Under the pieces are notes generated by a model. That model was not told the DNA's origin. It did no database searches and saw only the letters and a program-made list of their open reading frames with translations. Source: Gemmatimonadota bacterium (GTDB taxonomy: Bacteria; Gemmatimonadota; Gemmatimonadetes; Longimicrobiales; Longimicrobiaceae). From it: a stretch of DNA of 13,941 nucleotides. Position numbers and translations under genes: made by a program. Where the stretch lies: the NCBI GenBank assembly GCA_019348475.1, contig JAHWJJ010000060.1, positions 1 through 13,941 on the forward strand. The letters run 5' to 3'. Below, one piece after another: positions 531 to 13,941 of the stretch. Position 1 is the first letter of the stretch, and each line of letters begins with the position of its first letter.

Positions 531-574
531 TTCCGCTCTCCACACGCGCTCCGGCGCGGGTGAAGACCGGGGTT

Positions 575-648
575 CGGGACGTGGCGCAGCCCGGTAGCGC
601 ACCTGAATGGGGTTCAGGGGGTCGCCGGTTCAAATCCGGCCGTCCCGA
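575..648 (+). tRNA. tRNA-Pro (anticodon GGG)
   Basis: A full cloverleaf can be folded. The 7-bp acceptor stem CGGGACG (575-581) pairs perfectly with CGTCCCG (641-647), with discriminator A at 648. The D arm GCGC...GCGC is present. The anticodon stem CCTGA/TCAGG encloses loop ATGGGGT, so the anticodon is GGG (proline). The T arm GCCGG-TTCAAAT-CCGGC is intact. CCA is not encoded. The 3' part from 606 onward is duplicated twice downstream, which marks this gene as the integration target of the island. In that reading the 3' half seen here formally derives from the inserted element. Confidence 0.95.
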
Positions 649-650
649 CT
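606..650 (+). repeat. att-like core repeat, copy 1 (left end of element 1, within tRNA-Pro)
   Basis: This 45-base segment, from the anticodon loop through the T arm and acceptor 3' strand to two bases past the discriminator, is repeated without mismatch at 3637-3681 and 5958-6002. Copies 1 and 3 also match for several more bases downstream (GTCGTAAG). The tRNA 3'-end location is the classic target of tyrosine-recombinase elements. Confidence 0.9.
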
Positions 651-660
651 GTCGTAAGTG

Positions 661-694
661 AAGGCCCTCCAACGCTTTAGCGCTGGAGGGCCTT
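661..694 (+). terminator. Hairpin terminator behind tRNA-Pro (copy 1)
   Basis: Arms 661-675 and 680-694 pair over 15 positions with one mismatch around a TTTA loop, starting AAGGCCCTCC. It lies 13 bases after the tRNA. Related but different hairpins follow the two tRNA fragments at 3692-3724 and 6010-6047. Confidence 0.75.
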
Positions 695-710
695 CTCGCG
701 TCAGAGGGGG

Positions 711-733
711 CGTGTATGTTTTTGTGTATGTTT
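711..733 (+). repeat. Arm-like repeat, element 1 left
   Basis: Two TGTATGTTT units lie 12 bases apart within a 23-base stretch that recurs identically at 3510-3532 near the other end of element 1. It starts 61 bases inside the att-like core. Position and pairing resemble arm-type binding sites of tyrosine integrases; this role is inferred. Confidence 0.6.
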
Positions 734-762
734 GTTTCGGGGATCTGTAGCCACCGCGAGGC

Positions 763-954
763 TCACGAGCGCCCTCCCTGCACCACGATGCCGAGCTTCC
801 GCACCGGCTGGGTGACGGCGAGGGCGATCTCCTCCGGGTCCTCCGTCAGATAGCAGTTGCGCAGGCTGCGCGGGTCCTTCCGGCCCTGGGCGTCCATGCG
901 CGCCTTCTCCGGGTGGTGCCGGCGGCCGTGGAGCAGGAGGGCGACGGTGGGTGG
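763..954 (-). pseudogene. Probable 3' remnant of a tyrosine recombinase (integrase) gene
   Basis: On the minus strand a frame runs from just after an in-frame TAA (955-957) to a TGA at 763-765 and encodes 63 residues with no obvious start signal. Its middle reads KDPRSLRNCYLTEDPEEI, followed by ALAVTQPVRKLG. This resembles the extreme C-terminus of phage-type integrases, where the catalytic tyrosine sits in a (W)KD-x-T-L-x-x-CY-x-x-x-D context; the candidate tyrosine codon is 850-852. The R...HxxR part of the active site is absent, so it could not work alone. Its location fits: integrase genes commonly lie next to the attachment site. The match is by eye, and an unrelated orphan ORF is possible. 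Confidence 0.5.
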
Positions 955-1031
955 TTATCCGTAGCCGCCTTCCGTTCCCTGCCCGGTGGGCGACTGAGGT
1001 TACTCTGAACCGAGGTCCTCATGTAGTTTAA

Positions 1032-3407
1032 TCACAGCGCCGCGCGCCTCAGCCATTGTGCATTCATCGCGACGATCACGGTGCTCGCCGACATCAGGAT
1101 GGCCCCGAGGGCGGGGTGCAGGATAATGCCCCACGGCGCTAACACGCCGGCCGCGAGCGGGATGGCGAAGATGTTGTAGCCGGCGGCCCACCAGAGGTTC
1201 TGGATCATCTTGCGGTAGGTGGCCTTCGACAGCGCGACGATGCGGGGTACGTCGCGCGGGTCGCTGCGCACGAGCACCACGTCGCCCGCCTCCACGGCCA
1301 CGCCGGTCCCAGCCCCGATGGCGATCCCCACGTCCGCGGTCAGCAGCGCGGGGGCGTCGTTCACACCGTCCCCCACCATCGCCACGCGCTTCCCCTGAGC
1401 CTGCAGCTCCTTAATCTTCTCTGCCTTCTGGCCCGGCAGCACCTCCGCGAAAACCGTATCGATCCTGAGCTCCCGTGCGACCGCCTCAGCGACCGGCCTC
1501 GCGTCACCCGTCAGCATCACGACCTCGATACCCTTGTCGTGCAGACGGCGGATGGCCTCCCGCGACTCGTCGCGGACCGCGTCCGCCACGGCGAAGACGG
1601 CATGGGCCCGGCTCCCTTCCAGCAGGTAGATCGCTGCCTGGCCCCGGCCTGCCGCCCGCTCCGCCGCCTCCAGCAGCCCGGGGGCGGGCTCCACGCCCTG
1701 CATGCGCAACAGCGCCGGACCGCCCATCAGCAGCTCGCGTCCATCGAGGTCAGCCCTCACGCCGTGCCCGGGAATCGCCTCGAAGCCGCGCACCTCCGGG
1801 ATGCTCACGGCACGCTCCTCCGCCGTGCGGACGATTCCCTGCGCGATCGGGTGCTCGGAGTCGCGCTCCACCGCAGCCGCAATGCCGAGCGCCTCCGCGT
1901 CCGACAGCCCGTCCGCGGTTGTCATCTCCACCACGCGGAACTCGCCCAGCGTGAGCGTACCGGTCTTATCGAAGACGACGGCATCGAGGTTCCGGGCGTC
2001 CTCGAGCCCGCGCCGATCCCGCACCAGGAGGCCGTTGCGGGCCCCGAGCGTGGTCGAGATGGCGATCACCAGCGGGATCGCCAGGCCGAGCGCGTGTGGG
2101 CAGGCGATGACGAGCGTCGTGACCACGCGCTCGATGGTGAAACCCCACTCCGCCCCGAGCGCCTGCCAGACGACGAGCGTGAGCGCGCCGGCACCGACGG
2201 CAACGAAGGTGAGGAAGAACGCGGCCCGATCCGCCAGCGCCTGGGCCCGGCTGCGGGAGGTCTGCGCCTGCTCTACCAGCCGCATGATGCCCGCGAGCGT
2301 GGTCCGCTCGCCGGTCTTGGTGACCTCCACCCGGAGCGAGCCCGACCCGTTCACCGTAGCCGCGATAACCTCCTCGCCCTCCAACTTCTCCACGGGACGC
2401 GACTCGCCCGTGATCATCGACTCGTTGACCGCGCTCCTGCCTTCGCGAACCACGCCGTCGGCAGGGATGCTCTCGCCCGGCCGGATCAGCACCAGGTCCC
2501 CGTCATGAAGCTCCGCGATGGGCACCTCCTCGGTGCTGCCGTCCACGATGCGCGTGGCGGTGCTCGGGAGGAGCTTCGCCAGTTCGGAGAGCGCCCCCTG
2601 GGCCTGAATGATGGACCGCATCTCCATCCAGTGGCCCAGCAGCATGATGGTCACCAGGGTCGCCAGCTCATCCCAGAGCGGCATCCCGGGGAAGCCCAGT
2701 AGCACGGCGACGCTGAAGACGAAGGCAACCGTGATCGCCAGTGAGATCAGCGTCATCATTCCGGGCAGCCGGTCCTGCAGCTCCCGCGAGGCGCCCTGGA
2801 GGAAGACCCACCCGCCGTAGACGAAGACGATGGTGCCGAAGACGGGGGCGATCCACTCGGAGCCGGGGAAGTGTGGCGGATGGAAGCCCGTCAGCTCCGG
2901 GAGCATGTGCCCCCATATCACGGTGGGGAGGGTCAGCGCCAGCGACAGCCAGAACTTGCTCCGGAACATGTCCGGGCTGTGGCCGGCATGCTTGTCGTGG
3001 CCACCGGGCGCACCCTGCGCCCCGTGGCCCGCATCGGCACCATGCTCTACGTGCGCGCCGTGCCCCGTGGCAGCGGTGTGTCCGCCATGAGCCTCGTGCC
3101 CGTGGTGCGCCGGGTGCGTGGGCGAGGCGCTGGAGCCGGGAAGATCTCCAGAGGGATGTTGCAGCTCCGGGTGCTCGGGGTACCCCGGCTCGGCCGGCGG
3201 CTCCTCCGCCGGCGCGTGCTCGCGGACGTGCGAGTGCCCGTCATGCTCAGGATGCTCGTGGTGCGGGGGATGGGCACCGTGCGGGACCTGCCCGCCCGGT
3301 GCCGCGTCCCTGCGGGCCACATCGCCGTGGCTCGGATGAGCCGGTCCTGCCTCGGGATTGGAGGCGTGATGATCCCTGTGGTGGTGCCGATCCGGATCCT
3401 TCGTCAT
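1032..3407 (-). CDS. copB: CopB-type copper-translocating P-type ATPase (P1B-3), His-rich N-terminus
   Basis: This 791-residue heavy-metal ATPase exports copper across the inner membrane using ATP. The first 143 residues hold 31 histidines in HHH, HxH and GH patterns, a cytosolic metal-binding extension instead of CxxC domains. Transmembrane helices begin near residue 150. Visible motifs are TGES (333-336), the ion-binding CPH motif (436-438) that defines the P1B-3/CopB subclass, phosphorylation site DKTGTLT (480-486), SEHP (517-520), GDGVND (679-684), and late-helix signatures YN (744-745) and MSAST (772-776). All catalytic residues are intact. The start at 3405-3407 is chosen because a GGAGGGAG ribosome site precedes it; the longer frame to 3554 would run through the arm-like repeat. 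It is the only intact cargo gene of element 1, with no adjacent CopY, CueR or CopZ gene. CPH enzymes are assigned to Cu(I) or Cu(II), and the sequence does not decide which. Confidence 0.92.
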   Translation of the reverse strand: MTKDPDRHHHRDHHASNPEAGPAHPSHGDVARRDAAPGGQVPHGAHPPHHEHPEHDGHSHVREHAPAEEPPAEPGYPEHPELQHPSGDLPGSSASPTHPAHHGHEAHGGHTAATGHGAHVEHGADAGHGAQGAPGGHDKHAGHSPDMFRSKFWLSLALTLPTVIWGHMLPELTGFHPPHFPGSEWIAPVFGTIVFVYGGWVFLQGASRELQDRLPGMMTLISLAITVAFVFSVAVLLGFPGMPLWDELATLVTIMLLGHWMEMRSIIQAQGALSELAKLLPSTATRIVDGSTEEVPIAELHDGDLVLIRPGESIPADGVVREGRSAVNESMITGESRPVEKLEGEEVIAATVNGSGSLRVEVTKTGERTTLAGIMRLVEQAQTSRSRAQALADRAAFFLTFVAVGAGALTLVVWQALGAEWGFTIERVVTTLVIACPHALGLAIPLVIAISTTLGARNGLLVRDRRGLEDARNLDAVVFDKTGTLTLGEFRVVEMTTADGLSDAEALGIAAAVERDSEHPIAQGIVRTAEERAVSIPEVRGFEAIPGHGVRADLDGRELLMGGPALLRMQGVEPAPGLLEAAERAAGRGQAAIYLLEGSRAHAVFAVADAVRDESREAIRRLHDKGIEVVMLTGDARPVAEAVARELRIDTVFAEVLPGQKAEKIKELQAQGKRVAMVGDGVNDAPALLTADVGIAIGAGTGVAVEAGDVVLVRSDPRDVPRIVALSKATYRKMIQNLWWAAGYNIFAIPLAAGVLAPWGIILHPALGAILMSASTVIVAMNAQWLRRAAL

Positions 3408-3636
3408 GCTCCCTCCCGGGCGGTTGCGTGGCGCGCGATCGGAAGTCCGCCAGTTCAATGCCGTGCCCCCCGTCGCACGCACGAGCGCACCGTCCGCGAT
3501 GGGGGGGACCGTGTATGTTTTTGTGTATGTTTCTACCCGCGCAAACCTCATCAAAAGCCGTTTTGGATGCAGCAGGACCCATCAAAAAAGCTAGGAATTC
3601 CGCCATCTTGCGCAATCTTGATGATGAGTTAACTTA
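3408..3636. other. Right end of element 1: non-coding, AT-richer
   Basis: This stretch holds the copB ribosome binding site, the second 23-bp arm-like repeat, and then about 100 bases (3537-3636) clearly richer in A and T than the surroundings, with runs such as CATCAAAAAAGC. I see no gene and no well-spaced promoter that I would trust for copB. The composition shift fits an integrase or integration-host-factor binding region; that is inference. Confidence 0.45.
3510..3532 (+). repeat. Arm-like repeat, element 1 right
   Basis: Identical over 23 bases to 711-733, again with two TGTATGTTT units 12 bases apart. It ends 104 bases before core copy 2. The corresponding repeat of element 2 ends 106 bases before core copy 3. 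Confidence 0.6.
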
Positions 3637-3681
3637 AATGGGGTTCAGGGGGTCGCCGGTTCAAATCCGGCCGTCCCGACT
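3637..3681 (+). repeat. att-like core repeat, copy 2 (tRNA-Pro 3' fragment at the element 1/2 junction)
   Basis: Identical to 606-650 over 45 bases. The upstream acceptor strand, D arm and 5' anticodon strand are missing, so this is not a functional tRNA. It marks the junction between the two elements. Confidence 0.9.
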
Positions 3682-3691
3682 ACGATAAGCG

Positions 3692-3724
3692 AAGGCCCTG
3701 CATCGTGTTACGATGCAGGGCCTT
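3692..3724 (+). terminator. Hairpin behind tRNA fragment (copy 2)
   Basis: Perfect 14-bp arms 3692-3705 and 3711-3724 around loop TGTTA, followed by TT. The first 8-9 bp of each arm (AAGGCCCT) match the hairpins at 661 and 6010, while the inner part differs. It lies 10 bases after the tRNA fragment, so this element carries its own terminator next to its tRNA end. Confidence 0.75.
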
Positions 3725-3753
3725 TTCGCTTCTCCCCCTCCACGCGACAGGTT

Positions 3754-3773
3754 GGGGTATGAGCTGGGGTATG
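3754..3773 (+). repeat. Arm-like repeat, element 2 left
   Basis: Two GGGGTATG units (3754-3761, 3766-3773) lie 12 bases apart, 72 bases inside core copy 2. The same unit is paired again near the right end of this element. Confidence 0.55.
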
Positions 3774-3778
3774 TGAAC

Positions 3779-3898
3779 TTAGCGGGCCGCCATCTCCGGG
3801 AATTCAGGTGCGAGTTCCTCGGCATTCTTTCCCCACCCGTACCTGGACAGAATTTCCTTGCCCTGCGCTCCTCTCGTTCGTACGATGCGAGTCTCCAT
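3779..3898 (-). CDS. Small ORF of 39 codons, possible recombinase 3' remnant
   Basis: ATG at 3896-3898 and TAA at 3779-3781. The product, which begins METRIVRTRGAQGKEILSRY and ends with PEFPEMAAR, is not recognised. Its stop lies 98 bases past core copy 2, close to the 113-base spacing of the recombinase-like remnant in element 1, so it may be the last exon-like scrap of this element's integrase. It sits just downstream of the SEDS-like gene, whose stop is at 3908-3910. No clear ribosome site precedes it. It could also be a chance frame. Confidence 0.3.
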   Translation of the reverse strand: METRIVRTRGAQGKEILSRYGWGKNAEELAPEFPEMAAR

Positions 3899-3907
3899 TC
3901 CGAGTGA

Positions 3908-5068
3908 TCACACGATCCCAATCCGGAGATCGAAGACCGTCCCTTTCTCTGCAGGCTGCTCGTCCCGCGCTCGGCTCTGCACGGCGGCGGTGGACCGCAC
4001 CGGGCCGGGGAGGAACGCCAGGCTGAGCACGTACCCCACGACCGCGCTTCCGCCGTAGCCAACGAGCGGCGTGGGATAGTTTCCGGCTGCGGCGGCCACC
4101 ACGATCCCAAGCCACAAGGTCCCGAACACGGCGCACGCGTCGCCGTTCCCCGAACCGAGCTTCCTCCCCGGGATTGCCGGAAACGCAAGCAGCACCGTGC
4201 CGCAGACCACCGCCAGACCCGCCATCACATGGACCTCGAACGCCGTGTAGAGGATCTTGTCCACGTACGGCACAGCCGGGAGCGTGTCGGGTCGAAGCAG
4301 TGTCACCGCAAACCCGGTGGCAGCGATCCCAAGCGCCGACCCCACCCAGAGGTCACGCCGACGCACCACGAGCACTGCCAGAGCGGACGCGAGCACGCCC
4401 GCCATTGCACGGTCCGGCTGAAGCGCCAGCGCGACCGCGCCCAGGATCACTCCCAGCGTGGACAGGATGTCCCGCTGCCGCGCGAACGCGACCAGCATCG
4501 TGGGAAGGAGGACGAGGCTGATCTGCACGGAGACGCCAGCAATCCGGATCCACCGGGAGGCACCCTCAACCGAGACCCCGAAGAGCGTTGTCGCGAGCAG
4601 TACGGCGCCGAAGGCGAGCGTCACCCCGCCCGGCAGGAGCGGCGCCTCCCCCGCGTGGGGGCGCAGAAGGCCATACAGCGCGAGGCCCATCAGGAGAGCC
4701 AGCACGTTGATGGCTAGATAGAGCGCCGGCGCCCCGGCTGCGGTCATGTACGCCAGCCCCAGCCCGGTGGCCGCGATCGCGCACGCCACTCCGACCGTTC
4801 GCGGGTTCCCGCGAAGGTCTTGGAACATCGAATCGAGCGCGACGGTGCCGCGCGCGCGCCGGCTCGCTTCCTTGATGCTGTCGAGGCGCCCGAACTCGGC
4901 CTCGGCGCGGCGCAGCGCGTCCTCGCGGGAAAGCCCCGCATGCTCGTGCCGCTCGGCCTCGCGCTCGAGGTGAAACCTCAACTCCTCGTCGAGCTCCCGA
5001 TCAAGCGCGTCGCGGTCGAACAGCGCGCGCATTCGGTAGCGTACGACGTTCCAGATCTCGCTCAGCAT
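3908..5068 (-). CDS. Permease-prefix / FtsW-RodA (SEDS)-like hybrid membrane protein
   Basis: 386 residues. Residues 1-90 (MLSEIWNVVRYRMRALFDRD onward, with DEELRFHLEREAERH and EDALRRAEAEFG) match the prefix domain found in front of acidobacterial-type orphan ABC permeases. The rest, 92-354, is not an FtsX/MacB permease. It is a string of about eight hydrophobic segments carrying the ordered signatures of SEDS proteins: RWIRIAGVSVQISL (172-185), LQPDRA (216-221), LPAVPYVDKIL (263-273) and YPTPLVGYGGSAVVGYVLSL (331-350). SEDS proteins polymerise peptidoglycan glycan strands. The large extracellular loop of the family looks shortened and TDFIF is replaced by VDKIL, although Asp270 may be the equivalent acid, so enzymatic activity is uncertain. 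The start is chosen at 5066-5068, where the prefix domain begins, with a GGGGTGA ribosome site that includes the padR stop. Only 5 bp separate it from padR, so the two are very likely co-transcribed and PadR-controlled. Confidence 0.7.
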   Translation of the reverse strand: MLSEIWNVVRYRMRALFDRDALDRELDEELRFHLEREAERHEHAGLSREDALRRAEAEFGRLDSIKEASRRARGTVALDSMFQDLRGNPRTVGVACAIAATGLGLAYMTAAGAPALYLAINVLALLMGLALYGLLRPHAGEAPLLPGGVTLAFGAVLLATTLFGVSVEGASRWIRIAGVSVQISLVLLPTMLVAFARQRDILSTLGVILGAVALALQPDRAMAGVLASALAVLVVRRRDLWVGSALGIAATGFAVTLLRPDTLPAVPYVDKILYTAFEVHVMAGLAVVCGTVLLAFPAIPGRKLGSGNGDACAVFGTLWLGIVVAAAAGNYPTPLVGYGGSAVVGYVLSLAFLPGPVRSTAAVQSRARDEQPAEKGTVFDLRIGIV

Positions 5069-5073
5069 CGTGG

Positions 5074-5406
5074 TCACCCCATCTTGAGCAGCAGCGACAC
5101 GGCTCTCGTGAGCCGCTCCCAGGCGTCGGCCTCCGCGTCGAGCTGATTGCGGCCCGCACGCGTGAGTTCGTAGAACTTGGCTTTGCGGTTGTTCTCCGAC
5201 GCTCCCCATTCGGCGCGCACCCAGCCACGTCGCTCCAGGCGGTGCAGCGCGGGATAGAGCGAGCCCTGGGGCACTTGCAGAACGTCGCGCGACACGTGCC
5301 GGATGCGCTCGGAGATCGCCCATCCGTGCAGTGGCTCAGCCGATAGAGCTTTCAGAATGAGCAGGTCGAGCGTGCCCTGGGGTAGGTAGAGGCGGTCGTC
5401 GGTCAT
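5074..5406 (-). CDS. PadR family transcriptional repressor
   Basis: 110 residues, the usual length of short PadR proteins. The N-terminal winged helix-turn-helix reads LPQGTLDLLILKALSAEPLH, followed by GWAISERI and a recognition-helix region QGSLYPALHRLERRGWV (about 47-63). The C-terminal helix (ELTRAGRNQLDAEADAWERL) is for dimerisation. The start at 5404-5406 is preceded by GAGGA at 5-base spacing; a longer frame to 5559 would include the promoter and is rejected. PadR proteins typically repress their own operon and an adjacent membrane-protein gene. Here the partner is the SEDS-like hybrid gene 5 bp downstream, and a near-perfect palindrome overlaps the promoter. The ligand is unknown. Confidence 0.92.
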   Translation of the reverse strand: MTDDRLYLPQGTLDLLILKALSAEPLHGWAISERIRHVSRDVLQVPQGSLYPALHRLERRGWVRAEWGASENNRKAKFYELTRAGRNQLDAEADAWERLTRAVSLLLKMG

Positions 5407-5429
5407 GGAAGTCCTCGTAAGGTCGCCAA

Positions 5430-5450
5430 TACAATAGACAGTCTCTTGTA
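5430..5450. promoter_or_regulatory. 21-bp palindromic operator of the padR operon
   Basis: The sequence has the form TACAA-t-AGAC-a-GTCT-c-TTGTA: 10-base arms around a central base with a single mismatched pair. It covers the -10 box and most of the spacer of the padR promoter, which is ideal for autorepression. Binding by this PadR is inferred from position. Confidence 0.65.
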
Positions 5451-5459
5451 GAAGCGCAA
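5431..5459 (-). promoter_or_regulatory. Promoter of the padR / SEDS-like operon
   Basis: On the minus strand TTGCGC (5459-5454) and TATTGT (5436-5431) are separated by exactly 17 bases. The start codon of padR follows 24 bases after the -10 box. Confidence 0.6.
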
Positions 5460-5460
5460 G

Positions 5461-5834
5461 GGGTAGATGCCGTGGCCCAGATCTCGACCACCGGTGCCCC
5501 CGCCCTCTTGCCTGTGCCTGCGACTCGCATAACGACCTGTGTTCAGCGGTGGAAGGCACGTGACTCGTCCAATTTACTGGACCGGACCCACTTCTCGCGG
5601 TGGACCTGGGCGTGGTCGCATGGTCGACGGCGAAGCTCCCGTCGTGAGGCGCTTCCGCGATCCCATCGCCATGCTGACGGAAGATGGGATCCGGCTGGAC
5701 ATCGCCAACCTATATGCGGAGGTCGAGCCCGCCCGGACCGGGTAGCTCGTGTTGGCGAATCCATTGGTTCCGAACCGCTCTGCTGGCAGCGAACTGAGCC
5801 GCGCGCCATGAAGGCTCTCGAAGCCTGTGGGCTC
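5461..5834. other. Upstream region of element 2 without a confident gene
   Basis: Between the padR promoter and the right arm-like repeat no recognised gene is seen. One short plus-strand frame, ATG at 5620-5622 to TAG at 5743-5745 (41 residues, ending with DIANLYAEVEPARTG), has protein-like composition, but no ribosome site precedes it and I do not recognise it. It may be the tail of a lost gene. Confidence 0.35.
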
Positions 5835-5851
5835 GGGGTATGTGGGGTATG
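5835..5851 (+). repeat. Arm-like repeat, element 2 right
   Basis: Two GGGGTATG units (5835-5842, 5844-5851) lie 9 bases apart and match the units at 3754-3773. They end 106 bases before core copy 3. The intervening DNA is AT-richer than its surroundings, as in element 1. Confidence 0.55.
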
Positions 5852-5957
5852 AGATGCACGTTGGAAAGCCGCGAATCACGATCACATACCGCATGGCCTT
5901 GGCATGCAAATACTTGTGGTTGCGCGTGTTAAACAAGCACCTCCTGGCTAGTGGCTT

Positions 5958-6002
5958 AATGGGGTTCAGGGGGTCGCCGGTTCAAATCCGGCCGTCCCGA
6001 CT
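5958..6002 (+). repeat. att-like core repeat, copy 3 (right end of element 2)
   Basis: Third identical 45-base copy of the tRNA-Pro 3' end. The following bases GTCGTAAG match copy 1 rather than copy 2. It lacks the 5' half of a tRNA and is not a functional gene. It probably marks the outer boundary of the island. Confidence 0.9.
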
Positions 6003-6009
6003 GTCGTAA

Positions 6010-6047
6010 GCGAAGGCCCTGCAACGGTTTCGTTGCAGGGCCTTCGC
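6010..6047 (+). terminator. Hairpin behind tRNA fragment (copy 3), possibly the original tRNA terminator
   Basis: Perfect 17-bp arms 6010-6026 and 6031-6047 around a GTTT loop. If integration displaced the native 3' end to the right, this would be the ancestral tRNA-Pro terminator. Confidence 0.7.
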
Positions 6048-6159
6048 GCGTACTGGCCAGGGGTGGGATAACCCTGGGACCTTGGGCGCGGCTCCGCCGG
6101 ATCGGCACCGGCTCCGGAAGGTCATTGCGGATCTCGCGCCGTGACACAGCTGCCTCGCC

Positions 6160-6880
6160 CGCCGTCCGCGCATTCGTCATCGGCGCGAACCGGTGGGAAG
6201 AAGCGGATCGGTGGCCGCTCCCTGGCGCACGGGAGCGAGTCTACTTCCCCCCGAGCCGGGGCAGCGCCGGCGGCACCGGGACTGCGGCCGGAACGGGACT
6301 GCTGCTCGGCCGCAGGCCGAAGGACTCAGCGGCGGACAGCTATCGCTACGATCCCAGCGACCCGGTGCCGACCGTCGGGGGCGCCAACTTCCACCTCTTC
6401 CACTCGAACCTCGGCCCGCTTGACCAGCGGGAAGTCGAGCAGCGCAGGGACGTGCTCTCCTATACAACGCCGCCGTTCGATGCTGGCGCTGTCCTCGCGG
6501 GACCGGTCTCCGCCACGCTGTACGTTTCCTCGACGGCGCGCGATGCGGACTTCACCGCCAAGCTGGTGCTGGTGCGCCCCGACGGCTACGCGCGCATCGT
6601 CGAGGACGGGATTATCCGCGCCCGTTATCACGACTCGCTGCGCCGGCCGGAACTCCGTGCCCGTCACCATCGAGCTAGGCGCCACAGCGCACGAGGTGGC
6701 CGCGGCGCGCGGCTGCGGCTCGAGGTGTCGAGCGGCAACTTCCCGAAGTACGACCGGAACCCGCAGACGGGAGAGAATCCCGCCACCGCGACGGTCCTTG
6801 CGCCCGCGACGCACACGGTCCATCACGGCGGCGCGTACCCTGCGGCGCTGCGGGTGTGGCTGCGGAAAGCGCGGCGCTGA
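6160..6880 (+). pseudogene. 3' remnant of a CocE/NonD family (X-Pro dipeptidyl-peptidase-like) hydrolase gene
   Basis: The recognisable part begins at PAVRAFVIGANRWEEADRWP and continues through YRYDPSDPVPTVGG, GPLDQREVEQRRDVLSYTTP, GPVSATLYVSSTARDADFTA and EDGIIRARYHDSLRR to RLRLEVSSGNFPKYDRN and a normal C-terminal end. This is the C-terminal third of CocE/NonD hydrolases, covering the end of the alpha/beta-hydrolase domain and the jelly-roll domain. The catalytic serine region (about 350 residues) is missing. A second defect is visible inside: VPVTIELGATAHEVAA is encoded in the next frame over, so the frame changes at about 6648-6653 and changes back at about 6700-6712. The gene is truncated and doubly frameshifted and should be non-functional. 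Confidence 0.8.
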
Positions 6881-7056
6881 CGAGCCGTCCGCCTTGCGAT
6901 TACCGCTCCGTCGCCGAAGCGCGATTCGTCGCGCCCCCGTTCTCGAACACGGCCACCCGCCGCATCGCGCTCGACCTCGAGCCGCTCGGCCAGGAAGCCG
7001 AGCCGGCCTGAGCCGGCCAAAGCCTTGATCCGCGAGCGCGCGGCCATCGCGCCGGC
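6881..7056. other. Decayed sequence between hydrolase remnant and bla-type operon
   Basis: No intact gene. One plus-strand frame ending at 7009-7011 gives DYRSVAEARFVAPPFSNTA and a further short tail, which looks protein-like but has no start and is not recognised. It may be another gene remnant. Confidence 0.3.
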
Positions 7057-7085
7057 TTGACGCGTGGTGCGAATGGTGCTAATGT
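7057..7085 (+). promoter_or_regulatory. Promoter of the BlaI-M56-esterase operon
   Basis: TTGACG (7057-7062) and TAATGT (7080-7085) are separated by exactly 17 bases. The -10 box lies inside the first 19-bp operator-like repeat, so repressor bound there would block RNA polymerase. Confidence 0.7.
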
Positions 7086-7169
7086 GTTAGCACGGTGCCA
7101 ATGGGTTAGCACTGTGCCAATGGCTTAGCACTGTGCCAATGGGTTAGCACGGTGCCAACGGGTTAGCAT
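7075..7169 (+). repeat. Five tandem 19-bp operator-like repeats
   Basis: Units at 7075-7093, 7094-7112, 7113-7131, 7132-7150 and 7151-7169 are directly adjacent, with consensus KGTGCCAATGGGTTAGCAC. The first contains a perfect dyad, GTGCTAA-TGTG-TTAGCAC; the other four keep TTAGCA but have C in place of T in the left half, so the symmetry is imperfect. They lie between the -10 box and the BlaI-type start codon. Binding by the encoded repressor is inferred from position and dyad shape. Confidence 0.75.
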
Positions 7170-7225
7170 GCACTCCGCCCCAGCGACGGCGGAGCACGGT
7201 TCCTCCAGTCCCCGGGAGCGAGGCG

Positions 7226-7618
7226 ATGACGGCAGGCGGAGTTCACCCCGATCTCGGGCGCCGCGAGCGCCAGATCATGGATGTCCTCTATCAGCTGGGC
7301 CGGGCGAGCGTCGCCGACGTGCGCGAGCTGCTCCCCGACCCGCCCAGCTACTCGGCGGTTCGGGGGATGCTCAGGCTCCTCGAGGACAAGGAGTACGTGC
7401 GCCATGTGCAGGAGGGCGCCCGCTACATCTACTCGCCCAGGCGCTCCCGCTCGCAGGCAACCAAGCCAGCGCTCCGTCATCTGGTGCAGACGTTCTTCCA
7501 GGGCTCCACGACCGCCGCAATCGCGTCACTCGTCGAATCCGCCGAGTCGCTGAGCGACGATGATCTCGACCGGCTTGCCGCGATGGTCGAACGGGCCCGC
7601 CAGCGGAAAGGAAGATAG
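7226..7618 (+). CDS. BlaI/MecI/CopY family transcriptional repressor
   Basis: 130 residues. The winged helix-turn-helix (about 8-70) reads LGRRERQIMDVLYQLGRASV, then ADVRELLPDPPSYSAVRGML, then LEDKEYVRHVQEGARYIYSP, typical of BlaI/MecI. The C-terminal part with HLVQTFFQGSTTAAIASLVE is the dimerisation domain, in which BlaI-type repressors are cleaved when the paired sensor protease is activated. A GGGAG ribosome site lies 7 bases before ATG 7226. It is directly followed, after one base, by an M56 protease gene. It should bind the five tandem repeats upstream and repress the operon. The inducing signal cannot be read from the sequence. Confidence 0.93.
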   Translation: MTAGGVHPDLGRRERQIMDVLYQLGRASVADVRELLPDPPSYSAVRGMLRLLEDKEYVRHVQEGARYIYSPRRSRSQATKPALRHLVQTFFQGSTTAAIASLVESAESLSDDDLDRLAAMVERARQRKGR

Positions 7619-7619
7619 A

Positions 7620-9326
7620 ATGTTCGTCTCCATGCCGGATGCTGCCGCCTTCCTGGGCGAATGGGCATTACGCGCCACCCTGCTGCTCACGATCGCGGCC
7701 GGTGCTGCGGCGTGCGCGCGCCGCGCGTCGGCGGCGCTGCGCCACGCCGTCTGGACTGCGGCGATCGCCGGCGTCATCGCCATGCCGCTGTTCGGGGTGG
7801 CGTCGGCCGCATCCCCGCTTCAAGTGCCCGGCCTGCATTTCGTCACGAGCTCCGTTCCACCCGCCATGCACGTTGTGTGGAGCGGCAAGGGCGCGGTTCC
7901 CGGCTTCAGCGCCGTACCCTCAGCGGGGGGAGCTGACGCCGGGGCTGCGAAAGGGGATGGGGGGCCGGGCGTGCATGAGCGATCTCGCACCCGCGCAGCC
8001 GTCGGCTTTTGGATCGGGTGGGTCTGGATGGGTGGTTCCCTCGTCGGCGTTGCTCTCCTGCTGGTCGGGTACGTGCGCGCGGTGCGTCTTGCGAGAAGCG
8101 GGACGCCGGTCACGGCACCCGAAGTGCTCCGGCGCCTGGAACAGGCGAGCACTTCGCTCGGCGTACATGCCGGCGTTGCGCTCATCGCCCGCCGCGACAT
8201 GGCCGTCCCCGGAGTCATGGGAATCTTCCGGGCCTCCATCATCGTTCCGGCGGACCTCATCGGATGGCCTGCCGAGCGACAGCGCGCGGCTTTCCTGCAC
8301 GAACTGGCGCATGTGCGGCGCCGCGATTGCCTGTCGCAGCTCCTGGCCCAGGTCGCCTGCGCGCTGCTCTGGCCGACGCCAATGGTGTGGTACGCCGCCC
8401 GGCAGAGCAGGGCGGAGCGCGAACACGCGTGCGACGATGTGGTGCTCACCACCGGCGTTGCTCCGGTGACCTACGCCGACGTGTTGCTCGATACGGCAAG
8501 GCGGGCGGGGGGTCGAGAAACGCCGCTGCCCGTGCTGGCGATGGCGCGGCGATCGCAGCTCGAGGGGCGGCTGCTCGCGATACTGGATGCGCGGCGGGGG
8601 TTGCGCCGTTCCTCGCTGTCGAGCCGCGTCGCGGTGGCGCTGCTGGTTTTCGGTGCAGCAGTGCCGCTCGCCGCGGTGGCGCCTTTGCCAGACGTTGGGG
8701 CCGCCCGCGATGTGCAAGTTGCGGCGGCAGGCCCCGCAGTGCCGATGCCGGTGGAGAAGGAGCCCTCGGAGGCGCGCAGCGCACTGCCTGCCGGAAGCGC
8801 GAGCCTTTCCGATTCCATTCGTGCCGTCGTGACTGCGCGCCATGGCGACACGCAGCTCATGCTGGCGGAGCGCGAGATCGTCGCCTTGGCGACGCGGGTG
8901 GAGCCGGAGCCCTCAGCGGTGCGCAGCGCGCTGCCTGCCGAAAGCGCGAACCTTCCCGATTCCGTTCGTGCCGTCGTGACTGCGCGCGATGCCGACACGC
9001 AACTCATGCTGACGGAGCGGGAGATCGTCTTCACCTTCACACGCGCCGGCGTCGAACGCATCGCGCGGCAGGTCGAGCGCTCGCGTGGCGCCAGCGCCTG
9101 GAACGCCGATGCCTCGTCGCGTTCAGGACCGATCGCCGGCGTAGCCAACATGCGAATGGCGTTTCCCCTTGCCACCGTATCTGCGGTGGTTGCGGACGAA
9201 GGGGCGCTGGAGCTCCGTCGGCAACCGGGAACGGGGAGCTCCAGGCCGTTCCGGTTCGAGGGCGTGGACCCTACGGACGCACGCCGCTTCGTTGCCGCGT
9301 TCGAGCGGCACAGGGGGGCACGATGA
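7620..9326 (+). CDS. M56 family membrane metalloprotease (BlaR1-like), without penicillin-binding sensor domain
   Basis: 568 residues when started at ATG 7620, which follows AAGGAAG and lies one base past the repressor stop; an upstream ATG inside the repressor gene is rejected. Membrane segments are visible near residues 11-33, 42-62, 127-155 and 336-355. The zinc protease motif HELAH (227-231) and the downstream EREHACDD (266-273) are those of M56 peptidases. In BlaR1 this domain cleaves the BlaI repressor after signal reception. There is no SxxK transpeptidase-like sensor; instead there is a C-terminal tail of about 210 residues with an in-frame duplication (378-421 and 427-470). What it senses is therefore unknown. 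Its stop overlaps the next start (ATGA), showing translational coupling with the esterase gene. Confidence 0.9.
   Translation: MFVSMPDAAAFLGEWALRATLLLTIAAGAAACARRASAALRHAVWTAAIAGVIAMPLFGVASAASPLQVPGLHFVTSSVPPAMHVVWSGKGAVPGFSAVPSAGGADAGAAKGDGGPGVHERSRTRAAVGFWIGWVWMGGSLVGVALLLVGYVRAVRLARSGTPVTAPEVLRRLEQASTSLGVHAGVALIARRDMAVPGVMGIFRASIIVPADLIGWPAERQRAAFLHELAHVRRRDCLSQLLAQVACALLWPTPMVWYAARQSRAEREHACDDVVLTTGVAPVTYADVLLDTARRAGGRETPLPVLAMARRSQLEGRLLAILDARRGLRRSSLSSRVAVALLVFGAAVPLAAVAPLPDVGAARDVQVAAAGPAVPMPVEKEPSEARSALPAGSASLSDSIRAVVTARHGDTQLMLAEREIVALATRVEPEPSAVRSALPAESANLPDSVRAVVTARDADTQLMLTEREIVFTFTRAGVERIARQVERSRGASAWNADASSRSGPIAGVANMRMAFPLATVSAVVADEGALELRRQPGTGSSRPFRFEGVDPTDARRFVAAFERHRGAR
8751..8882 (+). 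repeat. In-frame duplicated segment of the M56 gene, copy 1
   Basis: Encodes residues 378-421 of the M56 protein. The same segment recurs 147 bases (49 codons) later at 8898-9029 with mostly silent or conservative changes; shared stretches include SALPA, AVVTAR and DTQLML. Confidence 0.75.
8898..9029 (+). repeat. In-frame duplicated segment of the M56 gene, copy 2
   Basis: Second copy of the 132-base segment, offset 147 bases from the first and separated by 15 bases. Both copies are in frame, so this looks like a functional tandem duplication in the extracytoplasmic tail. Confidence 0.75.
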
Positions 9327-10699
9327 GCGGCCCGATGCGCGAACGCTTCATCGCGCTGGCACTCGCTTGCCCTGTGCTGGCGTTCGGATGCAGTGGCCTG
9401 CCGGCACCGCACGGCGCAGGTGTACCGGAAGCGGGCGGCGATCCGATCCTGCAGCGCGCCGTGTCGCTCGCCAGGCCGCTGGCGAACCCCGCAGACGTGC
9501 CGTCCCCGGCACTCGGCGCTCTTGCAAGGGCGATCGGTGATGCGCGGATCGTGATGCTCGGCGAGCCATGGCACGGCGACGGCGGCGCGATTCGCCTGCG
9601 CGGCGAGATCGTGCGCTTCCTACACGACAGCCTCGGGTTCGATGTGCTCGCGTTCGAATCTGACTTCTTCAGTACCACGCACGGCTGGGAGACGGAAGCG
9701 GCGGTCCGCGGCGCGGCAGGCGTGGCGGCCGACAACATCTATCCCTTCTGGGCCACGACCCGGGCAGCAGCGCCGCTCTGGGAATACATAGAGCGGCAAC
9801 GGGTGGGCAGCCGGCCGCTGGACGTTGTCGGGCTGGATCCGAAGCACGTGGGCGCGACGGCGCGCCGATCGCTGCCGCCGGAGCTCGAGCGGCGCCTCGT
9901 AGAATTGACGGACGTCCCCGCCGAACAACGGCGTGCATTTCACTCGGTGCTGGAGAACTACCTGAAGAGGGAGCAGGTCTACCGCCCAACGCCGGACGAG
10001 CTGGCGGTGTTCTTCACTACCCTGGAGGCTCTGGAGCGGGCCATGCGCGCGCGTCCGGCGGCCCAGCGTGAGCCGTTCTGGGAGCAGGCGGTGCGCAACC
10101 TGATCGGGGCAGGGGAATACGCGTGGCGCGGCGCGAGCCGTGATCGCGTGATGGGCGAGAACCTCCTTTGGCTGGCGACGCAGCGCTACCCCGACCGCAG
10201 GATCATCGTCTGGGCGCACAACAACCACATCATCACGGACAAGTGGATGTACTACGGGGCGCCGGATACGGTCATTCAGCGTGCCCTGCTGGGCCGGCCG
10301 CACGCCCGGATCGCCCGCGCCACCTACCTGGGAGCGGAAGCACGCGAGTACTTCGGTCCCAAGGTGTATTCGCTCGGTCTGCTGTCGCACGCCGGAACGT
10401 TCACGCCGGACATCCGCACGAACGTGGACGTATCGACAGGCGAGTTCGAGGAAGGGGAGTTCGGGGTGGTGAAGCCGCTTTCCCCCACGCCGGCCGGGAC
10501 GCTCGAGGCGGCGCTCGCGCAGGCAGGGCACCGCACCGCCTTCCTGGACCTGGCGCCGTTTCGCGGGCCGGAGGGTGCGCTGGCCGCGCGCGTCCTCGAC
10601 TACTCGGTTACGCCACCGCGGAGAATGCGGTACTGGGAGGGGTTTGACGGATTCTTGTTCATCCGGGAGACAGTGGGCCTGAACGAGCCGTGGCCGTGA
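9323..10699 (+). CDS. Erythromycin esterase family protein, likely exported lipoprotein
   Basis: 458 residues, near the usual length of Ere-family proteins plus a signal peptide. The N-terminus is a short positive stretch, a hydrophobic segment and Cys23 in AFGC, a weak lipobox, so a lipid-anchored extracytoplasmic protein is likely. Family motifs are LGEPWHG (79-85) with the conserved Glu81 and His84, FESDF (111-115), and VWAHNNHI around His299 and His302. In EreA/EreB the equivalent Glu and His residues support hydrolysis of the macrolide lactone. Many family members are not macrolide esterases, so the substrate is open. The start overlaps the M56 stop by four bases, with GGGGGG upstream, making it the third gene of a BlaI-controlled operon and the probable output of the signalling pair. 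Confidence 0.85.
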   Translation: MSGPMRERFIALALACPVLAFGCSGLPAPHGAGVPEAGGDPILQRAVSLARPLANPADVPSPALGALARAIGDARIVMLGEPWHGDGGAIRLRGEIVRFLHDSLGFDVLAFESDFFSTTHGWETEAAVRGAAGVAADNIYPFWATTRAAAPLWEYIERQRVGSRPLDVVGLDPKHVGATARRSLPPELERRLVELTDVPAEQRRAFHSVLENYLKREQVYRPTPDELAVFFTTLEALERAMRARPAAQREPFWEQAVRNLIGAGEYAWRGASRDRVMGENLLWLATQRYPDRRIIVWAHNNHIITDKWMYYGAPDTVIQRALLGRPHARIARATYLGAEAREYFGPKVYSLGLLSHAGTFTPDIRTNVDVSTGEFEEGEFGVVKPLSPTPAGTLEAALAQAGHRTAFLDLAPFRGPEGALAARVLDYSVTPPRRMRYWEGFDGFLFIRETVGLNEPWP

Positions 10700-11194
10700 A
10701 CGATCTCCGCCCGCAGGGGCGCCGAGGCTCTCGCCTGCGGCAGGAACTCCCATTCGCCTGGCGCTGGAGCGCGGGTCCGCGGCGCGGAGCACTGCGTCAC
10801 CGGATGATCAGAGAACCCACCGAGGTCGCGGTCGCCGACGACTTCGCAGATCAAGTCGATGCGTCTGGCCTCCGCGGCATTCACGCGGGCGATGATGGTC
10901 TGCTGAAGATCGATCCCTCCACTCTGACGGGCGTTCTGGACCCGTCGCTCAGGGAAACCCCGTACTGGCCGCTGAACGGCGCGACGCTGCGCCCGCCCCT
11001 GGATGCGAGCCAGCCCTCCCGCGAGCACCTGCGCGCGCGCTGGCAAACGCCGCCGGCCGCCGGTACTTGAGGCGTGCATTCCGCTGCGGAACAGGCTTAC
11101 GCCGCGGCGGACGACGCGGCCCGGGAGATGCAGCCATCCCCCGGCGCCCGCATGGGGGCGGGCCTGACCACTACACGCTGGCAAGGAGGACTCC
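10700..11194. other. Region of about 490 bp without a convincing gene
   Basis: Plus strand 10801-10950 and the opposite strand over the same stretch both give open, protein-like frames (plus: EVAVADDFADQVDASGLRGI; minus: VNAAEARRIDLICEVVGDRD). Wobble-position GC is about equal in both, so the coding strand cannot be decided. Neither has a plausible ribosome site or matches a family I recognise. It may be a decayed gene. The last few bases contain the ribosome site of the next gene. Confidence 0.4.
11183..11190 (+). promoter_or_regulatory. Strong ribosome binding site of the SOD-like lipoprotein gene
   Basis: AAGGAGGA, close to the full anti-Shine-Dalgarno match, ends four bases before ATG 11195. 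It is the strongest such site in the window and decides the start. Confidence 0.75.
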
Positions 11195-11668
11195 ATGAGA
11201 TCAGCCTGTGTAGCCGCGGCGGTGCTGCTGGCCGTAGCGAGCTGCTCACAGACACCCAAGGTGGAGACGGACCCGGAGACCGGCCGCGTGGACGTCGACG
11301 TGGAGGCACCGGGCGCGGAGGAGAGCTGGAGCGGGAATCTGAGCCCGGTGGGCGGCTCGGGGGTGTCGGGCACCGCGACGGCACGCGGGATGGGCGATGC
11401 GACGCACAGCACCGTCACCATCAGGGGCGGGCGGAGCGGCGGCGTGCACCCGTGGCACATCCACGAGGGCACCTGCGGCGACGCCAACGCGCCCATCGTC
11501 GGTCCCGCCTCGGCGTACCCGCCGCTGAACGTGGGGAGCGGCGGAACCGCCACGGCGCAGGCGCACGTCCCCGTGGAACTGAACGAGGCCAGGCGGTACA
11601 TCGTGAACGTACACGCCTCGCCCACCAACCTGGGAACCATCGTCGCCTGCGGCGTCCTGGACGACTGA
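11195..11668 (+). CDS. Lipoprotein with Cu/Zn superoxide-dismutase-like (or CHRD-like) domain
   Basis: 157 residues. The signal peptide ends in lipobox VASC, so Cys17 would be lipidated and the protein anchored outside the cytoplasm. The domain from about 45 to 155 is all-beta in character. WHIHEGTCG (87-95) aligns with the GxHxH copper-ligand strand of Cu/Zn SOD, giving His88 and His90. VNVHAS supplies His140 as the counterpart of the last copper ligand. Cys94 and Cys152 could form the conserved disulfide. The zinc loop and its His/Asp ligands are not seen, so it may bind copper without being a true dismutase. It appears monocistronic, with its own ribosome site and a terminator after it. 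CHRD-domain membership is the main alternative. Confidence 0.7.
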   Translation: MRSACVAAAVLLAVASCSQTPKVETDPETGRVDVDVEAPGAEESWSGNLSPVGGSGVSGTATARGMGDATHSTVTIRGGRSGGVHPWHIHEGTCGDANAPIVGPASAYPPLNVGSGGTATAQAHVPVELNEARRYIVNVHASPTNLGTIVACGVLDD

Positions 11669-11685
11669 TCCTGCCGCATGCAACG

Positions 11686-11718
11686 GAGCCGGCGCCGCCC
11701 GAAAGGGTGCGCCGGCTC
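11686..11718 (+). terminator. Terminator after the SOD-like gene
   Basis: Ten-base arms GAGCCGGCGC (11686-11695) and GCGCCGGCTC (11709-11718) pair perfectly, and the inner CCC-GAAA-GGG extends the stem. There is only a weak T run (TCGTG). It lies between two convergent genes and may act on both strands. Confidence 0.6.
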
Positions 11719-11818
11719 TCGTGCATCAACGCGCGGAGATGGCCGTTCTCCGCGCCTTCGCGTTCGACGGTTGGGGCCTGAGCGCGCAGGCGCAGCCCTC
11801 GTACGTCCTGTTCTGGAG

Positions 11819-13941
11819 CTACGCGTACACCCAGGCGGGGTCCCGGGCCAGCAGGCGCTCCGCGTCGTCCGCGCAGAGCGGGCGCGAAAACAGGTAGCCC
11901 TGCGCATACTGGCAGCCGAGCTCCCGCAGCACGCGCGGCTGCGCGGGCGACTCCACGCCCTCGGCCACCACGCCCACCCCCAGGCTGCCCGCGAACGCCG
12001 CGATCGCCGCGACGAACCGCGCGCGCCGCGGCTCGGATTCCATCCCGTGCACGAACGAGCGGTCGATCTTCACCGCGTCGATGGGGAACCGCTCCAGGTA
12101 CGCCAGCGACGAGTACCCGGTGCCAAAGTCGTCCAGGTGCAGCTGCACCCCCAGGCCGCGCAGCGCGCGCAGCGTTTCGATGGCCGCGTCGGCCTTGTCG
12201 ATCAACACGCTCTCGGTGATCTCCAGCCGCACGCATTCCGGCGCCACGCCGTGCCGGCGCAGCGAGCACTCCACCTGCTGCAGCAGGTCCGGCTGCAGGA
12301 ACTGCCTGGCGGAGACGTTCACCGCCAGGGTGAGCGGCGGGTCGCGCGGCGCGGCGGCGTGCCAGCCGGCCAGCACGCGGCTGGACTCATCCAGCACCCA
12401 GCGCCCCACCTCGCCGATGAGCCCCGTCTCCTCCGCAACGGGGATGAAGTCGGCCGGCAGGATGGTGCCGTGCTGCGGGTGCTGCCACCGCACCAGCGCT
12501 TCGAAGCCCACGATGCGCCCCGTCTCCAGGCGCACCACCGGCTGGTACTCCAGCCGCAGCTCGCCGTCCAGCAGCGCGCGGCGCAGGTCGGTCTCGATCT
12601 GCAGCCGCCGCATGGCCGCCGCGTGCATCTGGCGGTCGAAGACTTCATGGCGCCCCTTGCCCCGCGTCTTGGCGCGCCCCAGCGCCGCGTCGGCGTTGCG
12701 CAGCAGTTCCTCGGGGTTCACGTCGCCGCTGTCGCACAGGGCAATGCCTATGCTGGCGGAGGCGAACACTTCGCGCCCGCCCAGCGAGAACGGCACGGCC
12801 AGCGCCTGCAGCAGGCGGTCCGCCACCTGGGTGGCCTCCACGGGCGTGCCCACCCCCTCCAGCATCACCGTGAACTCGTCGCCGCCAAAGCGCGACACCG
12901 TGTCGCCGGGGCGCAGCGACTGCGCCAGCCGCGCCCCGACCTCGCGCAGCAGCTCGTCTCCCGTGCCGTGGCCCAGCGAGTCGTTGACCAGCTTGAAGCG
13001 GTCCACGTCCAGGAACAGCACGGCGAATGGGATGCCGCGGCCGCGCCGGATGCGCTCCAGCGCGTGCTCCAGCCGGTTGAGGAAGAGCGCGCGGTTCGCC
13101 AGCCCGGTGAGCGCGTCGTGCAGCGCGTCGTAGGCCAGCTGCTCGTCCACCCGCCGGCGCTCGGTGATGTCGGTGATGGCCCCCAGCGTGCCGACGACCT
13201 CGCCGCCCGCGTTGCGAAAGGGGGTGCCGTGCACCTCTACCCACCCGGTGGTGCCGTCCTTGCGCAGCGAGCGCATCTCGTATCGCTCCGCCACCCCCCC
13301 GGCGCGGCGCGCCATGCGCTCGCGGAACGGCGCCACGTCCTCGGGCGGGATCAGCACGTCCAGCCCCACGCGCCCCACCAGCTCGTCCGGCCGGTAGCCG
13401 TAGATCTCTTCCATCCGGGGGTTGGCGTACAGGATCACGTCGTCCAGGTCGGTGATCAGCAGCCCCTCGCCCAGCGACTCGGCCACCGTGCGAAAGCGGA
13501 TCTCCGACTCGCGCAGCGCCTCCTGCGCCCCGGCGCGCTCCGTCACGTCGCGCGAGTTGACCACGATCCCCGCCACGGCGGGCGCGTGCAGCAGGTTGGT
13601 CGCCGTGCACTCCAGCACGCGCCAGCCGTCGTGCGCGTGCCGGTTGCGGTAGGTCACGGAGCGCACCGCCCCGGGCGTCTGCCGCAGCTCCTGAAACACC
13701 TGCAGCAGCGCCTGGCGGTCATCGGGGTGCGCGCCCGCGAACGCATGCGTGCCCGCCAGCCGCTGCGGCGCGTACCCGAGCAGCCGCTCGATGGCCGGGC
13801 TCTGGTAGCGGACGGTGCCGTCCTCCTCCAGCACCGTGATCACGTCGGACGCGTTCTCGATCAGCGATCGGAAGTACTCCTCGCTGTGGCGCAGGGCCTG
13901 CTCCGCGCGCTCGCGCTCCCTCACCTGCGGAGGAGTGCGGG
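11819..13941 (-). CDS. PAS-PAS-GGDEF-EAL cyclic-di-GMP signalling protein; 5' end beyond right edge
   Basis: The stop TAG is at 11819-11821. The frame is open to the right edge, so the N-terminus is missing; a GTG at 13922-13924 is a possible but unproven start, and residue numbers count from it. Two PAS domains (about 14-130 and 140-258, each ending in a DVTER/DITER linker) precede a GGDEF domain with intact GGDEF (347-351) and an RPGD inhibitory site (338-341) five residues upstream. An EAL domain follows with EAL (475-477), NVSARQF, EITES, DDFGTGYSS (598-606), KIDRSF and EGVES. All metal and catalytic residues of both domains appear present, so synthesis and hydrolysis of c-di-GMP are both possible, with PAS input deciding. 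No membrane segment is visible in this part. It converges on the SOD-like gene and shows no functional link to it. Confidence 0.93.
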   Translation of the reverse strand, partial: RTPPQVRERERAEQALRHSEEYFRSLIENASDVITVLEEDGTVRYQSPAIERLLGYAPQRLAGTHAFAGAHPDDRQALLQVFQELRQTPGAVRSVTYRNRHAHDGWRVLECTATNLLHAPAVAGIVVNSRDVTERAGAQEALRESEIRFRTVAESLGEGLLITDLDDVILYANPRMEEIYGYRPDELVGRVGLDVLIPPEDVAPFRERMARRAGGVAERYEMRSLRKDGTTGWVEVHGTPFRNAGGEVVGTLGAITDITERRRVDEQLAYDALHDALTGLANRALFLNRLEHALERIRRGRGIPFAVLFLDVDRFKLVNDSLGHGTGDELLREVGARLAQSLRPGDTVSRFGGDEFTVMLEGVGTPVEATQVADRLLQALAVPFSLGGREVFASASIGIALCDSGDVNPEELLRNADAALGRAKTRGKGRHEVFDRQMHAAAMRRLQIETDLRRALLDGELRLEYQPVVRLETGRIVGFEALVRWQHPQHGTILPADFIPVAEETGLIGEVGRWVLDESSRVLAGWHAAAPRDPPLTLAVNVSARQFLQPDLLQQVECSLRRHGVAPECVRLEITESVLIDKADAAIETLRALRGLGVQLHLDDFGTGYSSLAYLERFPIDAVKIDRSFVHGMESEPRRARFVAAIAAFAGSLGVGVVAEGVESPAQPRVLRELGCQYAQGYLFSRPLCADDAERLLARDPAWVYA

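Follow-up and report, generated by a model that had tools for sequence, protein, structure and literature searches.

What has left three identical copies of a tRNA gene end, with two very small islands between them, on a single contig from the draft genome of a soil-type Gemmatimonadota bacterium? The contig, here called the window (13.9 kb; 13,941 bp), belongs to an assembly of 504 contigs with 77% completeness. A 45-bp block at 606–650, the 3′ part of tRNA-Pro(GGG), has exact copies at 3637–3681 and 5958–6002, as a preliminary description of this DNA had stated, and the core-to-core spacings of 3031 and 2321 bp delimit islands of 3.03 and 2.32 kb (Table 1). The locus has the form of a tRNA-targeting island, with a direct repeat of a tRNA 3′ end bounding variable cargo and occupancy differing among relatives. 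We conclude that the two islands are very probably CIME-like elements, decapitated of their integrases and accreted in tandem at a tRNA-Pro(GGG) hotspot of tyrosine-integrase islands.

Table 1. Features of the tRNA-Pro(GGG) locus, in window coordinates
Feature	Position	Strand	Basis or remark
tRNA-Pro(GGG), integration target	575..649	+	ARAGORN and Rfam; sole tRNA-Pro(GGG) placed
Core copy 1, attL of island 1	606..650	+	From anticodon loop to 3′ end of tRNA gene
Hairpin 1, probable tRNA terminator borne by the left end	660..695	+	Near-identical in G006 island
Left arm pair of island 1, GTGTATGTTT twice	712..733	+	12 bp apart; identical in G006 island
Integrase gene stump, last 53 codons	766..924	-	Stop at 763–765; tblastn 100% amino-acid identity to residues 408–460 of the G006 reading
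Heavy-metal (copper-type) P-type ATPase, island 1 cargo	1032..3407	-	TIGR01525 592 bits, TIGR01511 587 bits, both on ORF 1032–3554; start is our reading
Right arm pair of island 1, GTGTATGTTT twice	3511..3532	+	
Core copy 2, attR of island 1 and attL of island 2	3637..3681	+	Exact repeat
Hairpin 2	3692..3724	+	
Left arm pair of island 2, GGGGTATG twice	3754..3773	+	12 bp apart
Protein with permease prefix domain 1, island 2 cargo	3908..5068	-	NF038403 43.7 bits on ORF 3908–5323; start is our reading; no Pfam match
PadR-family regulator, island 2 cargo	5074..5406	-	PF03551 73 bits, TIGR03433 148.6 bits, both on ORF 5074–5559; start is our reading
Right arm pair of island 2, GGGGTATG twice	5835..5851	+	9 bp apart; same sequence and spacing in G016 contig C18
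Core copy 3, attR of island 2	5958..6002	+	Exact repeat
Hairpin 3	6010..6047	+	
Degenerate arm-like pair after core copy 3	6063..6081	+	By eye, from likeness to G017 and G007 arms

The two islands share one architecture, in agreement with the preliminary description. A strong hairpin follows every core in the window (RNA energies of −32.6, −36.3 and −39.2 kcal/mol; z-scores of −6.1, −9.2 and −7.5), paired arms lie inside both ends of each island, and the distance from right arms to core, earlier put at about 105 bp, is 104 bp in island 1 and 106 bp in island 2. Each island has exactly four arm repeats in a common orientation, one pair close to either end. GTGTATGTTT starts at 712, 724, 3511 and 3523 and is absent elsewhere in the window (mean of 0.00 in 200 shuffles); GGGGTATG starts at 3754, 3766, 5835 and 5844 and is likewise confined to these places (mean of 0.27, with none of 200 shuffles reaching four). 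The arms of the two islands had been called unrelated, which is roughly right for what are different arm types, but both units hold GTATG.

The exact core occurs in nine stretches of named genomes, all of them Gemmatimonadetes-type assemblies, and at up to three mismatches in 16 of 21 family genomes; we infer that the window and these relatives belong to the Longimicrobium group. Core copies beyond the tRNA gene, counted with the weaker ones in the fetched contigs, lie 42 kb downstream in G003, 27 kb and a further 44 kb in G005, 40 kb in G006 and 6.8 kb in G007. They are also present on contig C18 of G016 and in G017, which has two copies 4.06 kb apart on contig C440 and weaker copies on C31 and C410. 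The stretches from other relatives contained the tRNA copy alone at up to eight mismatches, the longest of them (G009) reaching ∼54 kb downstream and the others being shorter, several below 4 kb.

Upstream of the tRNA stands a PDZ-domain gene (an M61-type peptidase by eye); 17 stretches besides the window were searched with it by tblastn, and 11 gave matches. Downstream, genes differ among relatives, the exceptions being one block common to G006 and G007 and one common to G005 and G006, and queries with the ATPase, PadR and permease-prefix proteins gave no tblastn match at E 1e-8 in the 17 other stretches. The upstream gene and the differing downstream genes form the pattern of an integration hotspot, not that of gene order conserved by vertical descent. 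Accretion at tRNA-Pro and loss of the recombinase, as first proposed from the window alone, are supported by relatives with other islands, by loci at which one core alone was found and by a 40-kb island that has the ends of island 1 and a nearly complete integrase. Comparison of occupancy yielded single-core loci and differing islands, and neither a plain chromosomal right flank nor a precise empty junction was found.

That 40-kb island, in G006, lies at the same tRNA, measures 40,158 bp between core copies and has island 1 arm pairs at both ends. Window positions 574–929 match one of its ends at 93%, and positions 3506–3734 match the other at 86%. The arms agree at all 44 bases, whereas 12 sites differ within the 104 bp that separate the right arms from the core. 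At up to two mismatches, the 22-bp arm pair occurs four times in 154 genomes of the order, and these are the four ends of the G006 island and island 1. Adjoining the left end of the G006 island is a nearly complete integrase frame of 460 codons, which is broken near its N-terminus in the assembly, so this copy may be inactive or misread.

Within the 53-codon stump of island 1, 15 synonymous and no nonsynonymous differences separate it from the G006 integrase, against ∼44 amino-acid changes expected without constraint over the whole divergence. Because the changes are confined to synonymous sites, codon comparison indicates that the gene was under selection until recently and that its truncation is young. 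The stump retains what we take to be the catalytic tyrosine and, as read by eye, is without the presumed arginine and HxxR motifs. Island 1 looks decapitated, because the 3′ end of an integrase gene from a much larger island type is still present in it, so that it need not have been a very small cassette from the start.

The parent integrase of island 1 is barely recognised by standard models. Its uninterrupted relatives have 503–506 residues and 84–91% identity (JGI-sourced data), and the next best matches, the window stump excepted, reach at most 39% identity among 395 genomes of the phylum with up to three candidates scored per genome. Neither P0001 nor P0002, which represent this integrase, had a Pfam integrase match, and a PF00589 search of the island contigs of G006 and G003 gave none; P0002 matches PHROG 1 (integrase, E 6e-7), and P0001 is without a PHROG match. 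A homolog on contig C99 of G001 (33%, E 2e-34) passes the PF00589 cut-off at 29.2 bits, and the G145 homolog falls below it (17.6 vs 27.1 bits). By the indirect route of the PHROG match and the homolog's PF00589 match, the parent integrase is a homolog of the phage-integrase family. An AlphaFold model built from three sequences has low confidence (mean pLDDT 38), alignment A1 had no match among solved structures, and no locus encoding a P0001 relative was found in viral contigs.

The G006 island (contig C147; L031, L032) also has a chaperonin-like gene and a 1294-codon frame that matches PADLOC TmtA at 1205 bits, together with a weak LmuA match (31 bits). Five of its 22 ORFs were run against Pfam, giving one chaperonin match, and two of these five match PADLOC defence models; the genes are possibly defence cargo.

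For island 2, in which no recognisable integrase or remnant was found, the relatives are seen through the arms. The left, 12-bp arrangement occurs on contigs C66 of G016 and C452 of G017, where integrase frames of 537 and 592 codons lie next to it; since both frames continue through the tRNA antisense, the integrases themselves end earlier. A further copy of this arrangement lies on contig C31 of G017, where the integrase is in pieces. The right, 9-bp arrangement stands ahead of a core copy on contig C18 of G016, and the likeness of that right end to the right end of island 2 (z of 7.6 against shuffles) owes much to the arms. G016 thus shares the arm type at both ends and G017 at the left end only. 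A 39-codon frame at 3782–3898, considered as an integrase remnant of island 2, matched only itself in 21 family genomes and was rejected. With a stump in island 1 and no integrase found in island 2, neither island has a complete recombinase, as originally described.

A third mini-island lies on contig C440 of G017: a 4.06-kb element between two cores with TGCTATGGTTT arms at both ends, carrying vapBC-like and other genes (named by eye), in which no integrase was found. In G145, a genome of another family, tRNA-Pro(GGG) is followed by the same arm type and by an uninterrupted integrase read as 448 codons, the last residues of which (ETIAETIA) are encoded by the arm repeats. A longer C-terminal remnant of this integrase type lies on contig C18 of G016, and the G017 mini-island retains no more than roughly the final 17 codons, which are in frame with an unrelated ORF. 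The position of the arms within the 3′ end of the G145-type integrase gene helps to explain why arms are retained in decapitated elements. In G145 (contig C34, L127) and G016 (contig C18, L081), the C-terminus of the recombinase and its presumed binding sites would be encoded in the same DNA.

Arm pairs recur at similar distances from the core across these loci. In a scan with criteria chosen once the first examples were known, a left pair was present at 14 of 26 core copies, those of the window included, compared with 397 of 20,000 random positions (∼2%). A right pair, starting 123–128 bp before the core, was present at 6 of 10 non-tRNA cores compared with 351 of 20,000 random positions. The scan leaves out the copies on contigs C31 and C410 of G017 and those in G004 and G145. 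The left pair was missing at 12 of the 26 copies; core copy 3 of the window is one of these, and others are the tRNA copies of G009, G012, G014, G015, G018 and G002. The right pair was missing at 4 of the 10 (both G005 copies, G003 and G007). At the last G005 copy the left pair may be due to chance, and the first G005 core has a pair 15 bp apart, outside the spacings that the scan admitted. After 22 of the 26 cores comes a hairpin whose stem has 11 pairs or more with up to one mismatch, a count made without a random control.

The preliminary description had looked to an integrase elsewhere in the genome as a possible mover of the islands. None matching either arm type was found in the 77%-complete assembly, with 3 of 10 candidates scored for the island 1 type. 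The genome has six PF00589 matches at five places, and in the stretches around them the only core-like match is a different tRNA-like stretch on contig C94, at 11 mismatches. No further copy of either arm pair was found in the assembly in the forms searched.

Core copy 3 is followed by the degenerate arm-like pair at 6063–6081 and so may form the left boundary of a third element instead of a plain chromosomal end; the pair fails the formal repeat-pair test. No core-like stretch that could serve as the right end of such an element rose above shuffles in 6003–13,941 (best score of 12; 20 shuffles gave maxima averaging 12.8 and reaching 17). The same flank has further features. After core copy 3, a CocE/NonD hydrolase is represented by its C-terminal part alone (6125–6880), probably a truncated gene. 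About five near-identical 19-bp units at 7075–7168 (GGTGCCAATGGGTTAGCAC, 4.9 copies) lie just upstream of a BlaI/CopY-type repressor gene (7226–7618) and look like a multi-copy operator, and two 147-bp tandem copies (87% match) lie at 8743–9029 within a BlaR1-like M56 peptidase gene.

We propose the following course of events. Several island types share a common core, taken from the 3′ part of the tRNA, and differ in their integrases and arm-type repeats; comparison of the elements listed above shows that the arms stand in direct pairs, one inside each end, with set distances to the core. An integrase bound to arm pairs and core would recombine a circular element with tRNA-Pro, the exchange probably falling in the anticodon loop because identity between the core copies starts there. 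The incoming copy would restore the tRNA 3′ end and bring a new hairpin that probably ends transcription. Elements would stack by repeated integration, deletions would take out the integrase and cargo between the ends, and islands 1 and 2 would be the remains of two element types that have kept core, arms and a little cargo and no integrase.

On this course the tandem order would result from successive integration, the tRNA-proximal island probably being the youngest. Decay is graded along the locus: it is slightest in island 1, next to the tRNA; island 2 lacks any recognisable integrase, and degenerate arms are all that accompanies the third copy. This gradient, which rests on three elements, fits a newest-next-to-tRNA order. 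The islands should be inert alone, and a matching integrase should still recognise and move them; movement in trans would be possible. More speculatively, and as a tentative suggestion, minimal integrase-less tRNA-Pro islands of the Longimicrobium group might be moved in trans at this one site, with a private arm code for each co-resident or visiting integrase.

Must such islands have decayed at all? The mini-islands could instead be a standing class of non-autonomous cassettes, MITE-like for tyrosine integrases, that full-length islands with the same arms move in trans. This would suit the three mini-islands without a found integrase (3.0, 2.3 and 4.1 kb), which represent three arm types with exactly four arm units each, the integrase-bearing loci known for each arm type in other genomes, and the identity of the island 1 and G006 arms next to diverged sequence. 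However, kept arms are a biased sample, because ends that had lost their arms would go unnoticed. No mini-island was found twice, and the arms of island 1 recur in G006 only; no genome was found to combine a mini-island with a full-length integrase of its arm type, the search of G017 not being specific to the G145 type. The stump, moreover, points to recent decay, and we consider a standing class unlikely.

With both blocks between exact cores on one contig, a single composite element of ∼5.4 kb or more, integrated once and holding an internal core copy, could also be envisaged, and transfer of accreted composites is described (PMC5704250). The two blocks, however, differ in arm type, and each type is tied elsewhere to a different integrase, which makes a single integration improbable. 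That the cores are a dispersed repeat unrelated to tRNA-Pro, or an artefact of a draft as fragmented and incomplete as this one, can be dismissed almost entirely, since reads are usually longer than a 45-bp repeat, the assembled genome has the core at only these three places (at up to three mismatches), and in other genomes cores follow the same tRNA, in part accompanied by matching arms.

Decapitation and accretion, the reading we prefer, has precedents: tandem islands without an integrase are known as leftovers, and the present ones stand out for their small size and for the larger relatives to which they can be traced. The tycheposons of Prochlorococcus, in another phylum, are likewise tRNA-associated islands with varied cargo. 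Integration, decay to CIME and accretion in ICE/IME tandems are described in PMC5704250. Like CIMEs as presented there, the islands are decayed elements in tandem at one target that have lost their integration genes (a 53-codon stump in island 1) and kept attL and attR, here as exact cores with arm pairs at both ends. They differ in their size of 2.3–4.1 kb and in having arm-type repeats at both ends that are tied to particular integrases; any ICE/IME parentage would be putative, and the three cargo ORFs had no match to transfer families. In Dehalococcoides, the tandem ssrA islands, of which 15 have no integration module (PMC3146451), similarly lie downstream of one RNA gene and are bounded by copies of its 3′ end, but their target is a tmRNA and their recombinase a serine recombinase, in contrast to tRNA-Pro and tyrosine integrases here. 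A search of the literature on islands, tRNA genes and integrases in Longimicrobium and Gemmatimonadetes gave nothing on the subject, as judged from titles and abstract openings.

What the locus adds to this known kind of leftover is that the islands are small, have complete sets of arms and can be matched to parent types, and that Pfam recognises the integrases barely or not at all. It shows the shrinkage of integrase-bearing islands to minimal ones that keep every attachment signal while the parent type is still visible. The site offers a natural series of integrases that apparently use one tRNA core but different arm repeats at similar distances, and such a series would permit direct tests of arm specificity and of mobilisation in trans.
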